Positions 5,842-64,000 of a stretch of 64,000 nucleotides of DNA are shown piece after piece. Under the pieces are notes generated by a model that was given only the letters and a program-made list of their open reading frames with translations, searched no databases and was not told where the DNA came from. Source of the stretch: Paragorgia papillata (Eukaryota > Cnidaria > Anthozoa > Scleralcyonacea > Coralliidae); assembly GCA_035771165.1 (NCBI GenBank), contig JAWNZC010000291.1, positions 469,001 through 533,000 on the forward strand, read 5' to 3'. Each line of letters starts with the position of its first letter. The stretch's first letter is position 1. A program made the translations under genes and the position numbers.

Positions 5842-5908
5842 ATGAGGTGGAGTGGAACAATCCTGGTATTGTACGTTTGTCTGGGTTTGGTGGATTACGC
5901 AGAATCAG
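5842..5908 (+). CDS. FGFR: FGFR exon 1: signal peptide (candidate)
   Basis: An ATG opens a 22-codon leader, with MRWSG then a hydrophobic core TILVLYVCLGLV, ending AES. It closes in phase 1 at a strong donor (CAG/GTGAGA), the phase needed by the Ig1 exon and the phase used by the signal exons of genes B, C and D. It lies about 10 kb from Ig1. It could instead, or also, splice to the open block at 6056. No cDNA is available to decide. Confidence 0.65.
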
Positions 5909-8900
5909 GTGAGAAATAGTAGCGAGTTTCGGACAGATTGGTAGTAACCGGTCGACATGCATGCATGACTTCGTTCTTTTGATCGTTCAAATGGAATGCT
6001 TAATTAGGTGCTAGCGTTGATCTCACAACAAACATCAGCCTTCGTGTATACATAGGTGGAGCGGCAAAGGTATTCAATTTCGAGGCGCCTGCATTTCGGG
6101 GATACACAAGGCAGATATTCAACTCAAAGGATCTTATCATTGTTCTACGGCATATCTCAAACGCCAGCCAGCCAGTACGTGCAGCGAATATTCTACTTCG
6201 CTTCGAACACCCACGGGTATAGTCGGAGTTTGTTTATAATTCTTGAAGCATACAAACAATCAGGTCAAAAGCGAGTAACTTTTAAAGGCGCCAAACTCCA
6301 GTTATTTGTTGAATACTAGATTCACAACAAACCACTGGAGTAAAGAAACTGGGGTAGGGAAACTGCGGAAAAAACTACTTCGGGAATTGTCGTTCCGATT
6401 CGCGCTGTCCAATTATCGATTGCCCTTTTCTTTGATTCAGTCTTTACTTCATATATAATAACCGTCGTTAATTGATTTCGTTAACTATGGACATTTCTAC
6501 AACCTGTGGAGATAATGTTTTGCCACAAATTACTGCCTTTTTACTCTAATCGCCTCTAATGTATGGTTTACACGCTGAAATCCGCCTCAAAGCGTCTGTT
6601 TCTTTTCATTTCTTATCAAAAGCAAAATGTGCCCTGAGAAAAAGATAAGTCTAGTATCCTTCCTTCCTGATTTTACGCCAAATATGCTTTAGGAATGTGA
6701 TAGGTCGCAACGAACACCTTGTTAAAGCTTACAGTGGCGGGTTTTTTTTTAGGAAGTTGACAAGAGAATACTAGGTTTGGGGTTAAGGGGAGAGTTGTGT
6801 TTAATAATTTAAAGGCCAGAGCGTCAAAGATTATTTTCTTTTATTCTACTCATCATCTTTATTTGTCAGTGTTTATCCTAGTGTCCCTTTGCGGTCATGG
6901 CCACTAGCCAACGCCGCACAGTTAGACGAAATCAATCGCAGTTGTTTTCATTTCCGCTCGCAACCACAGAATACCAAATATTCATAATAACTTAATGATT
7001 TTTCTACACAACAGTCATACCTTTAGCCTCATAAACTTGTAAACAGCAAACACAGCCGAAACAAGTTTCCGACTGCTATTAATCAGCCGGATAATAAAAA
7101 CTGAAGATTAGATTTCACTGTATTGCCTTTCTTGCTTCTCAATCGAGCACATGCACTGCTATAATTATAGATATTTTAAATCCGACCCTTAAATCTTTTC
7201 GCGCCGAATATCCCAGGGCAAAGCCGATATACAGCATTGCTTGCACGATAAAACAGAGAACCTATATAATTATTTCAAATTAGAATTCATGATTGTTATT
7301 TATCATATTAATAGATCTTTAACGCAACTTTCCCGAAGCTTTTCTTTGTGTTTTCGACAAAAGCAACATTGCTGAACGAACACACTGATAGAAGAGAACC
7401 TTGTTAGTTTGGAAGGCTATATTTATAGTGATACCAGCCAGGGAATTACACAAAGAAAAAAAAATATAGGAAAAATAAACTTGACCGACCTTTGCCAGAT
7501 GTCATTTGTGTGAGTTGAGATGAGTTTGAAACTCTGTCTTTCTTCTAATAACAAAGAAATGGGTTGGACTTATATGTCTTATCACTAATGTTGGTCTCAC
7601 TTCATTCTCCTGTCCAATCAAGCAGCGGACGGCTACTTTTATAAATTCAATTGACTTGGTATTAACTCCGATACTTTATACAATCGTACGTGCGACACGC
7701 ACGCCTAAAGGCATTTAGTTAAACGCTTTTACATAGATACATCTTATGTTAAAAAGACGGCTAAAGAATGAAATCTTACTCAGAAGTGGTTAATTAAACG
7801 AAACAGTTCAGCTCATGCACGCTGAGATATAAAAAACCACTCCCTTCGCGACGATTGAAAAAAAGGCGCATGCACAATAGTTTATTGCACTTTCATAAAA
7901 TACACTTCATAGTTCGCTTTGATATACACACGTGTCAATGATGTTACAACGGATATATGTATCCTTCTTCAGAATGACCGAGATTTTTTGTGCAGTAATA
8001 ATGGGATAGGAACTCTCTCCGGCTAACTTCAAAGAGAACAGGTCACTGCATGTTAAATATAGTTAACACATTTGTTATACACAGTGTCAAACTAAGGTTA
8101 TATATTTCAGTCATATTATGCAACCATTGTACAAATCCTAGCTATATATAGGTACACTTAGGGTAGTAACGCGTGATATGAATATATATAAACAATCTTA
8201 ACACCGCTGCTATTGTGTAGCAGAAGGGTGCCTTCTGGCTAAATTTGGCAGTGATGTGAAACGGGGTCAACAAGAAAAAATAGGAAGGAAAATGAAGCTA
8301 TGTTAGTGTGGGCGAATTCTGTCGCCATGTAATACAATCCATCCAAAATTCTTAATGTGGGTAAAACGCGACTTGTCATGGTGAGTCAAGGAACAACAAC
8401 AAGCTTAATTAGAAATGCACTATCATTATTTCAGATCCCCTACTGGTTTTAATGACTCTTTGATTCGATTCCTATATAATGACTTGTACTAACCACCTAA
8501 CGTACTTGGACAGCGCTACGCGAAACCCGAGAAACCAAAGCTCCCCCATTTTTGTCGCTTTTGCTGCGAGTAGTAACACAATGGTTGCATGATAAAACTA
8601 TGCAAATAGATCGCATGACAAGTTTCAAGATCTTACAAGATAATGATATTGAGATTCGAACCCGCGACCTTCGGTTTACTAGTCCGATGCTCTAGCAACT
8701 GAGCTACATGTCAAGTTGTACCAAAATTATGGCATAAAGCCGGTTTTCCACTAGGCGATTTTTTTTCGCGCGAAGCGACTTTCTTTTGTTCGAATTCAAT
8801 AGATTTCTGATTAGTTCCAGCTCAAAGCTCGTGAGACAAAAGAAAAAGTCGCTTCGCGCGAAAAAAGCCGTCGCCCAGTGGAAAACCGGTTTAAGGCGGA

Positions 8901-11900
8901 TAGCTAATCTTGGCCGCTCATACATTATTTACTATAATAAAACTCCAAAGGCCTGGCCAAACGCTTTCAACATTTCATTCAACATCGTTCAACATTGTTG
9001 AATTCAACCGTGATTCAATATATATGTTGAGAGCGTTTGGCCACCCTGTTGAATGATGTTGAACGATGTTGAACGTTGTTGAATGGTGTTGAATGATGTT
9101 GAACGAAATTTGAACATGTTCAAATTTTCGTTCAACATTAATGTTGAACGATGTTGCATGAAATGTTGAAAGCGTTTGGCCAGGCCTTTATAAGGCGGAC
9201 ACCTCTCTAATAAGGGGGACACCAAATTTGGTCCCGAGAGTGTCCGCCTTGGAAAGAGTTCACTGAAATCTAGTTATCGGAGTAGCACCTAGGCTAATAT
9301 AATTATTCTCCTGCACCTGAGTTCATGGTCCCTTATTCAAAAAAACATGTTACAAGATATCAGGTGACATTAGGAATTCTCGAGTATTTTATTTTTTGAG
9401 TTTATTCGGATAAAAATAATCATCAGTGCCGTGTACATAAAGCTTATAAACCATATAAGCGCCCTGTTATAAATTAATAAATGCGTCTATCAAAGACGTG
9501 ACCAGCAGATTGTATTCATAAGATACATTTCAAAGTCAATCAAATGTTAGATCTAGAGCCTTCGAGTCGCCTAAACGGTGCAGTTAAAAATAAGTTAATT
9601 GTATTTAATCCCCCGAGAATATTTTACGGCAGATACAACGCCAATTAATTTCTGATATTATGATATAGCATGCAAATCCAACGCCTTGTAGTTAATCCTT
9701 GTTAATAAACTACGCGGAAAGACCGACATTGCGGCATCAAACTACTAAGGCAAAAATTGAAGAAAATACAGTGCAAAATAGAATTCAAAAATAAACATCT
9801 TCAAAACCCCAAGATATGTCATATATATGACTTAAACTAAACAGATACGAAAATACGGCATACTGTTCCATGGTTAACTTAATAACTAGCCCAATTCGTA
9901 GAGCAGAAATAACCGAATTAGATATGATTCAAATCTAAAGCCAGTTGACAGTTTAAAGAAACATAGAACAAAGCGAAATCCAAAAATAAACATTTTTAAT
10001 AACTCAAGTCTTAAGATAAATCAAAACAGAACACAATGATAAAATGGCAATGTTTCATTTCATGTTTGTGTGATAACTTTGAAATAAAGTTGAAATATCA
10101 TCAGTTTCATCTTTGATTTTGTAACATTGGATGACTCTGATTAAAAATCGAAATATTGTAGTATATATTTTCAGTATATTTCAATTATTTAATGAAGGGC
10201 TTTTGTCTCTCTTTTCATTATTATATTTAGTTTTTTGAGACTGAATTTATAGCTCTCTTGTTTATTGTCAATAGTGAATATTTTATAACAATAGAAAAAA
10301 GATAGGTTGTTGTAAACAATCATTTCAAGCAGGTCAAATGCGATCATTTCTATATGGTCTGTTGTGTTTTTCGTTGAAAGATGATTTCAAGCGAAGCTAA
10401 TAGCTTTTTGTACATTTGTTTACGTCTATATAACGCGCACGAAGGCGCTACATGGGGTTGAACTACAACTATTATATTCAAATCATTAAAATATTGGTAC
10501 GTCGTCATAAAAGAACTTAGCAAGCAAAGACATATTCTACTCTGATGAAGAGCTCTGCTTGAAACGTCAGTATTTCGTTTGAAAAGCATTCTCAGCAGTT
10601 TACCATCTTTTCACTTTGCTCTATCTAAAACGGTACTGCCTACACATCACTCTACGTCAGTATATTTCGTTATCAAAACTATTCTCAGCAGTTTACTGAA
10701 ACACTGCCTACACAACACTCTACTTTTCACAATCAAAGACACATTGAGCTCTTTAAGGACATTTACGTATGAAAAAGCCTCACAAGTTCTTATAATAGTT
10801 GTTCGTAAATGACGCGATCTGTAACAAACTGAATCGAATATGGATCATGACCATGCAGTGTTGCCATTTGGAAAATTATTCACTCCACCTCCTCGAAATT
10901 CTACCCTGCGAGCAGAGCCTTCTTTTCCTTATTTCTTCGCTGAGAGAGAGGAAGAAAAGTAGGCTCTGCAGTCTGCTGTATTCGTGACTGGTTTCCATTG
11001 CGCATGCATGTCATGCAGTTGCTTGGTTACAATCTCGAAGAAATAACGAAAAGAAGGCTCTGCTCGCAGGGTATGAAATTCGGACAGTAAAGAAAAGTTT
11101 AGAAAATTATGTCCACTAAATTGTATGTTGCATATCAGGATACACCATCAAAAGAAAACGAGTCGATTAAAGCGCATAGTTTTGGCGCAAGCTCAGTTTG
11201 GCCCACACAAACGAGTTTTATACAGGCTCTACCCCCAATAAAATAATACAAATCACAAACCCTAAGCATAAAACCTTCTTCTGGTGTTCAACGAGAGAGT
11301 TGATTGGCTACACGGCAATCTTGAACAAGTTGTGAATTGTTATACTGTAGTTCTTTTTATGCTTTACGCTTACTCGACTCTTTACCTACCGTACTGATCA
11401 TTCGTTTTCAAAACAAGCCTACTTTAGTATTTTATTCTTTCTAACGCCAGGCAGACGATTTTACTACAGCCCTCGGTAGTGAAGAAGTTAAACGTTGATA
11501 GAATTAATGCTGGAAAAACTAAAAGGCATCCATGTTTGAAGCATATTTAGTTACTCTATATAGATACACACCTTTCCGGGGGCTGTCAGGAGTTTCCGGC
11601 CATTATGAGCTCGTCATTTTTTGCATAGTAACGCTTCATAGTATGTTGATCAAATATTTACTTCTATGAGCTAAAACGACAAGAAAGAAACACGTCATTA
11701 GCAACTATTGATTAGCTTGTGTCACAGCCCTACCTTGGTAAGGTCTGAGTGTGAATACTCGAGCAATTGCTTGTTCTTGCATAAATTAAATCCCAAGTTT
11801 TGGGGGAAATAATTTATGTCACCTTAAAAAATAATGATGTAGTTTTGTGGTCACTATACCCACTTTTACATGTTTAAGGTAAACCGAAAGACAGAGTCAG

Positions 11901-63867: not shown

Positions 63868-63943
63868 ATGGCGTACTTTTCAACAATGTGGACGATTTTT
63901 CTTCTTGAAGTATTTCTGATCTCCTACATATTCTGTAAACAAG
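63868..63943 (+). CDS. Gene D exon 1: signal peptide of a third receptor copy, partial gene
   Basis: 76 nt ending CAAG/GTAAAT: MAYFSTMWTIFLLEVFLISY then IFCKQ, two changes from gene C (K7M, A9T). The intron start is also conserved (CCTGGCGGATTGACAGTCCA). The rest of the gene lies beyond the window. Confidence 0.85.
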
Positions 63944-64000
63944 GTAAATTTAACCGTCCCATTCTTAGGCCCTGGCGGATTGACAGTCCAATCGGATCAA

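Follow-up and report, generated by a model that had tools for sequence, protein, structure and literature searches.

What are the kinase-less receptor genes that stand in tandem beside a fibroblast growth factor receptor (FGFR) gene in the octocoral Paragorgia papillata, and from which kind of receptor did they come? The array lies on contig JAWNZC010000291.1 (C291) of a 617.9 Mb assembly of 473 contigs. It starts within C291:469001-533000, a stretch of 64,000 nucleotides that we analysed as a whole and call the window, and we also read the adjoining assembly for 40 kb on its upstream side and 100 kb on its downstream side. Positions without a prefix are window coordinates, continued in the same numbering past the window end. 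The array consists of four genes, B, C, D and E, downstream of a kinase-bearing gene A. On balance we favour, from the sequences compared here, the reading that B-E are kinase-truncated copies of one FGFR type, and that their FGF-binding part has been exchanged, or kept in step, with that of a signalling receptor encoded farther upstream (gene F). We use the label type-b, coined here, for the clade of B-E, F, a further gene G and the Dendronephthya proteins P0136 and P0001.

Gene A is a complete FGFR, in agreement with the initial annotation of the window. Our model joins 15 exons between 5842 and 26647, with GT-AG at the splice borders and the frame closed, and its product of 843 residues combines a signal peptide, three immunoglobulin (Ig) domains, a transmembrane (TM) segment and a full tyrosine kinase (Pfam PF07714, 323 bits), the combination of Ig ectodomain, TM segment and complete kinase by which we recognise an FGFR. 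Genes B (35669-39628) and C (52351-55760) encode 447 and 449 residues that are 86% identical. Each has six exons, for the signal peptide, Ig1, a 33-nucleotide microexon, Ig2, Ig3, and the TM segment with the tail, with all internal boundaries in phase 1. Both end 36 residues after the TM segment, and Pfam gave no kinase match for the B protein. This layout, its phases and the short tail had already been read from the letters alone, as had the start of a third copy, D, which proves to be complete and open and runs to 70439. A fourth copy, E, also complete and open, follows at 73576-77076. Between E and 164000 we found no further Ig copy of the B-E type, nor any kinase exon between B and the same point, about 87 kb past E, in both cases save 10 kb of masked sequence; outside the masked part of that span we thus saw none to which B or C could be joined. 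The first claim thus holds: next to a kinase-bearing FGFR stands a tandem expansion of a kinase-less type, in four copies with open frames.

The signal exons of B and C, C and D, and D and E are 16.7, 11.5 and 9.7 kb apart. Self-alignment resolves these distances into one common unit, consistent with the net 7 kb or so estimated earlier, split by largely unshared blocks at 41.8-51.5 kb and 56.9-62.4 kb. Two LINE-like (long interspersed nuclear element) sequences with reverse transcriptase matches, at 44776-47781 (-) between B and C and at 58258-61917 (+) between C and D, form part of these blocks and so contribute to the unequal spacing. Where the copies align in their main blocks, DNA identity is 88-95%, which argues against a chance resemblance. 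Between B and C, the Ig2 and Ig3 exons differ by 9-10%, introns 3-5 and the 3' flank by 1-6%, and the microsatellite-rich introns 1 and 2 by 13-17%. We consider uncollapsed haplotypes an unlikely source of the array, given the unshared insertions and the 2-5.5% divergence of the compared non-coding DNA.

The three Ig domains, single TM segment and absent kinase of B-E are features of FGFRL1, and the array had initially been taken for an amplified FGFRL1. We compared the proteins with both classes. The top two matches to B were the Dendronephthya gigantea models P0001 and P0002, and in a ten-protein comparison the kinase-bearing P0136 was the best match to B and to C after each other. B and C share 45% identity with P0136 over the ectodomain and TM segment, as against 27-29% with the FGFRL1 protein P0013. 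Phylogenies of Ig2-Ig3, each limited by long branches and by FGFRL1 rows that are all vertebrate (n=7), gave the same grouping. With 18 rows, B and C cluster with P0136 and P0001 (support 100/100); with 26 rows, D, E, F, G and others being added, B-E, F and G form a clade (99/99) that joins P0136 and P0001 (98/98). A clade of B and C with FGFRL1 alone was rejected by the approximately unbiased (AU) test (p 5e-5, 18 rows), as was one of B-E with FGFRL1 alone (p 1.9e-6, 26 rows). Two wider clades were not rejected in the 18-row tree: FGFRL1 with all type-b proteins, kinase-bearing ones included (p 0.24), and vertebrate FGFR with type-b (p 0.24).

B-E could nonetheless be octocoral FGFRL1 orthologues, members of an ancient kinase-less family amplified like the three neighbouring FGFRL1 genes of Daphnia. 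Their six coding exons and phase-1 boundaries match those given for human and Nematostella FGFRL1 in the sections cited here of PMC2754479, which follow FGFRL1 across animals, note its linkage to FGF-pathway genes and also describe the Daphnia genes; the undecided wider clade is compatible with such an origin as well. We consider it improbable, since FGFRL1 clades without the kinase-bearing type-b receptors are rejected, within the vertebrate FGFRL1 sample, and since P0136 is so much closer than P0013. Thus the amplification of a kinase-less type stands, whereas its identification as FGFRL1 is not supported. The same sections report that Nematostella FGFRL1 groups with the FGFRb of Nematostella, its name being kept on structure and reciprocal BLAST (PMC2754479); this grouping is what independent loss of the kinase in Anthozoa would predict. 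The vertebrate form of FGFRL1 ends inside the cell in a His-rich part with a tandem tyrosine motif. Compared with the FGFRL1 proteins P0013, P0057 and P0110, no His-rich stretch was found in the tails of B-E.

The receptor that shares the ectodomain of B-E is a different one from the adjoining A. The A ectodomain is only 28-29% identical to those of B and C and is thus of a different type. A whole-genome search with the B protein from Ig2 onward returned 37 matches, including type-b Ig2-Ig3 sequences at C291:131.7-132.9 kb (gene F) and C322:711-713 kb (gene G). Gene F lies on the contig of the array, about 365 kb upstream of B, with its signal exon at C291:125293. Read exon by exon, it comprises signal, Ig1, microexon, Ig2, Ig3 and TM/juxtamembrane exons, followed by six kinase stretches covering seven kinase pieces; this reading did not locate one short kinase exon or the final exon. 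Its DNA identity to B-E is 95-99% in Ig1, 88-97% in the microexon, 96-98% in intron 3, 92-98% in Ig2 and 92-95% in Ig3, as against 67-72% in the signal exon. The TM exon of B has no significant DNA match within the F stretch (best E 0.18). The encoded proteins do align, from before the TM segment into the juxtamembrane region, with a score of 89 that none of 1000 segment-preserving shuffles reached; on this alignment we reject the idea that the TM exon of B-E is a non-FGFR module. With the kinase absent and the TM segment and juxtamembrane start alignable with F, B-E are at most kinase-truncated members of type-b.

The DNA alignment of F with the array falls into tracts. One runs from a repeat in intron 1 through Ig1 and resumes inside intron 2 to shortly past Ig2, and a separate one covers the Ig3 exon with a few flanking bases. 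Near-identity of the Ig exons and intron 3, next to strongly diverged signal and TM exons, is best explained by gene conversion or an exchange of exon cassettes, as far as sequence comparison can tell. The differences between B and C point the same way. Their synonymous divergence (dS) in Ig1-Ig3 is 0.13, against 0.04 in non-coding DNA; plain positive selection is not supported, as synonymous sites are raised too, and the raised synonymous change in pairs with B suggests exchange instead, so that conversion or exon exchange would fit these differences better. Over the whole coding sequence a synonymous excess is found only in the three pairs with B and in none of the other three. The pair C-E shows a replacement excess in the TM exon alone (p 0.006).

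We then asked whether the copies are maintained. At least 138 substitutions separate B-E without a single stop codon, against 5.7-7.4 stops expected from 138 random substitutions (P 0.0005-0.003). The ratio of nonsynonymous to synonymous change (dN/dS) in the signal and Ig1 exons is 0.18-0.36 in five of the six pairs, the sixth, C-E, reaching 1.41 with a single synonymous change; for the complete coding sequence it is 0.56-0.82 in the six pairs. The earlier statement that the copies look selected is therefore partly supported, by the open frames and by the N-terminal exons in five pairs, and is weakened by the whole-coding ratios. B-E might instead be young functionless duplicates whose decay is yet to come. 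The low non-coding divergence and the whole-coding dN/dS suit this idea, as do the altered tail of E, the 3.9 kb intron 2 of D and, upstream of A, a fragment of a type-b Ig2 that lacks 29 bases through a deletion (C291:463691-463942, -). We regard it as unlikely, given six open exons in each of four copies, the improbability of zero stops under neutrality and the conserved signal and Ig1 exons. The tails of B, C and D carry two tyrosines near their end (NEYVDLNQYKI). That of E is 11 residues longer (47 cytoplasmic residues) and has lost one tyrosine, and its extension runs through an apparent short deletion over the stop codon, judged by eye. As a retained phospholipase C-gamma (PLC-gamma) site, NEYVDL (NEEYLDL in A) gave a weak signal against three FGFR C-termini (uncorrected shuffle p 0.01-0.10), and we leave it as a lead.

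Changes among the copies concentrate in Ig3. Of the 86 variable residues in 447 columns, 19 fall within 40 columns (273-312) of this domain, a density matched in 2 of 5000 shuffles. The variable stretch is longer in B-E than in FGFR in an Ig3 alignment. A structure model of the Ig3 of B has a mean predicted local distance difference test (pLDDT) score of 83, with its lowest block (65) inside the variable stretch; its first matches are the D2-D3 chains of FGFR in FGF complexes, with other I-set domains, such as those of LRIG1 and titin, close behind. PMC7600612 states that ligand specificity in FGFR1/2 appears to depend on the Ig3 site, while FGFRL1 binds FGF8 through Ig2.

Gene G (C322:701841-715308, -) brings a third combination. 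Its signal exon is 72% identical in protein to that of D, and its Ig2 and Ig3 are of type-b (78% to C, 69% to B); Ig1 was not detected in it. Its TM segment and kinase are of the A type. In a kinase tree of eight rows, two of them less than half filled and with only partial sequences of G and F, the kinase of G pairs with that of A (99/98) and the kinase of F with that of P0136 (100/99); a grouping of G with F was rejected. We tentatively propose a phase-1-bounded FGF-binding cassette with three cytoplasmic fates: its own kinase in F, the kinase of another FGFR in G, and none in B-E. Conversion would keep receptor and decoys matched in ligand while the Ig3 loop diversifies.

Alternatively, B-E might be exon cassettes spliced between neighbouring genes, so as to place different ectodomains on one kinase. 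Internal exons in phase 1-1 would keep such chimeric transcripts in frame, gene G shows a type-b ectodomain on an A-type TM segment and kinase, and P0133 and the Dendronephthya models P0001 and P0002 combine Ig domains of different types or genes. We give this idea very little weight, in view of the kinase-free span downstream of B-E described above, the position of the kinase of A upstream of them, and the possibility that the Dendronephthya models are annotation merges.

Returning to kinase-truncated type-b copies, several observations weigh against them. The alignment of the B tail with F is short, and the whole-coding dN/dS allows weak constraint. F groups with B at only 88/65, and the test does not reject B-E as a clade that excludes F (p 0.28), so that F-type sequence may also have passed in the other direction, from the array to F. 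Three more distant FGFR-like Ig genes, H, I and J (C291:160642-168948, -, and C291:1522275-1537314, -), with no kinase in the stretches examined, fall beside the type-b clade (100/99), so that the tree does not settle loss versus gain of the kinase.

In the simplest history, an old type-b copy would have lost everything past the TM/juxtamembrane exon, and the truncated copy would then have been amplified head-to-tail beside A. Gene conversion or exon-cassette exchange would match the Ig1-Ig3 of B-E to those of F. At the cell surface B-E may bind the same FGFs as F, and could compete for ligand or pair with F, perhaps also with A, without trans-phosphorylation. They would thereby damp or shape FGF signalling, possibly as decoys or dominant-negative partners, and the differences in the Ig3 loop may give each copy a somewhat different ligand range. 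A ligand-buffering or co-receptor role of the cluster, as suggested earlier, is a hypothesis in keeping with this. FGFRL1 has hitherto been read as one ancient kinase-less family common to cnidarians and bilaterians, as set out in the cited sections of PMC2754479. Here the kinase-less receptors have their ectodomain in common with a kinase-bearing one from their own genome, which suggests that FGFRs without a kinase may have originated on more than one occasion. If the cassette proposal is true, a receptor and its own decoy array evolve in concert, and FGFRb would have given rise to the anthozoan 'FGFRL1' separately from the origin of the bilaterian one. The four copies with F, G and A provide a natural set for the study of how decoys act, of ligand range and of conversion between receptors that signal and receptors that do not.

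We compared B-E with known systems. They resemble FGFRL1 and nou-darake (Nematostella XP_001635234.1, Daphnia FGFRL1 A-C) in signal peptide, three Ig domains, TM segment, short tail and absent kinase. Neighbouring or multiple copies also occur in Daphnia (PMC2754479) and among the planarian ndl paralogues, where several FGFRL genes exist and two (ndk, ndl-3) act in patterning, according to the part cited of PMC4865367. B-E differ from FGFRL1 in not grouping with the vertebrate proteins alone, in the tail and in an ectodomain that nearly equals the one found on a kinase-bearing receptor of their own genome. With the octocoral type-b FGFRs (P0136, F) they share the ectodomain, TM segment and juxtamembrane start, but they end after 36 cytoplasmic residues (47 in E) and have no kinase. 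With vertebrate FGFR1-4 they share the Ig2-linker-Ig3 layout, the RP(I/V)L linker and the first matches of the Ig3 model; they differ by a longer stretch before Ig3 strand E, an Ig3 in one exon and the missing kinase. In vertebrate immune paired receptors, near-identical ectodomains stand on opposite cytoplasmic parts. B-E and F resemble them in that nearly the same ectodomain occurs both with a signalling part and without one, in the clustering of the genes and in conversion-like tracts; they belong to the FGF receptor family, and the comparison implies no immune role. Kinase-less FGFR-like clusters as such are already known. Among the papers listed in the literature searches (titles and first lines of abstracts) we found no octocoral FGFR array and no case of such a cluster being near-identical to a kinase-bearing receptor from its own genome. 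A term search of PMC7260276 (Hydra) and PMC8764167 (corals), in the main text of each, did not return 'FGFRL'.

Table 1 Exons of the FGFR-like genes A-D within the window.
Feature	Position	Strand	Basis or remark
A exon 1, signal peptide	5842..5908	+	GT donor, phase 0 to 1
A exon 2, Ig1	15854..16135	+	splice model, Pfam
A exon 3, 27-nt microexon between Ig1 and Ig2	17161..17187	+	splice model
A exon 4, Ig2	18213..18506	+	splice model, Pfam
A exon 5, Ig3 in a single exon	19603..19944	+	splice model, Pfam
A exon 6, TM and juxtamembrane	20283..20605	+	splice model
A exons 7-14, tyrosine kinase (GEGAFG, HRDLAARN, DFG, DYYRKTTDGRLPVKW)	21086..25955	+	splice model, Pfam
A exon 15, C-terminal tail starting EYLDL, with polyQ run	26360..26647	+	splice model
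B exon 1, signal peptide	35669..35744	+	splice model
B exon 2, Ig1	36514..36807	+	splice model, Pfam
B exon 3, 33-nt microexon	37646..37678	+	splice model
B exon 4, Ig2	37784..38071	+	splice model, Pfam
B exon 5, Ig3 including the variable stretch (about residues 271-310 of the protein)	38554..38937	+	splice model, variability test, structure model
B exon 6, TM and 36-aa tail ending NEYVDLNQYKI, stop	39360..39628	+	splice model, alignment with F
C exon 1, signal peptide	52351..52426	+	splice model
C exon 2, Ig1	52896..53189	+	splice model
C exon 3, microexon	53764..53796	+	splice model
C exon 4, Ig2	53902..54189	+	splice model
C exon 5, Ig3	54821..55210	+	splice model
C exon 6, TM and 36-aa tail	55492..55760	+	splice model
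D exon 1, signal peptide	63868..63943	+	exons 2-6 just past the window end

The best match to the A ectodomain was the FGFR-like protein P0133, with P0136 fourth after two turtle Ig proteins; in the direct ten-protein comparison P0136 was the top scorer against A. Gene A (19603-19640) is without the RP(I/V)L-like motif in the Ig2-Ig3 linker that is common to B-E and vertebrate FGFRs and reads KPVL or KPIL in FGFRL1. This motif presumably has a role in ligand contact, which may therefore have changed in A. Its C-terminal tail starts with EYLDL, which we take to be a PLC-gamma-site-like motif, and contains a polyglutamine run (about 26490-26555).

Searching the genome with the A kinase gave 132 matches, and 131 of 511 first-look candidates were scored; judged by identity, at least five multi-exon kinase loci are prominent (A, A', F, G and C126:1.362-1.366 Mb), other matches reaching 70%. 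A' is a second A-type FGFR upstream of A and pointing away from it (C291:447821-456832, -). The search gave its Ig1-Ig3 and eight kinase matches and did not find a TM exon. P0133, P0001 and P0002 join Ig domains of different receptor types, through annotation merges or real splicing between genes. Near the group at C291:1522275-1537314 there is an open frame with a TM-like stretch and a short tail. Between A and B, remains of a hAT-type transposase (hAT dimerisation region, DUF4371) lie at 31267-34181 (+).

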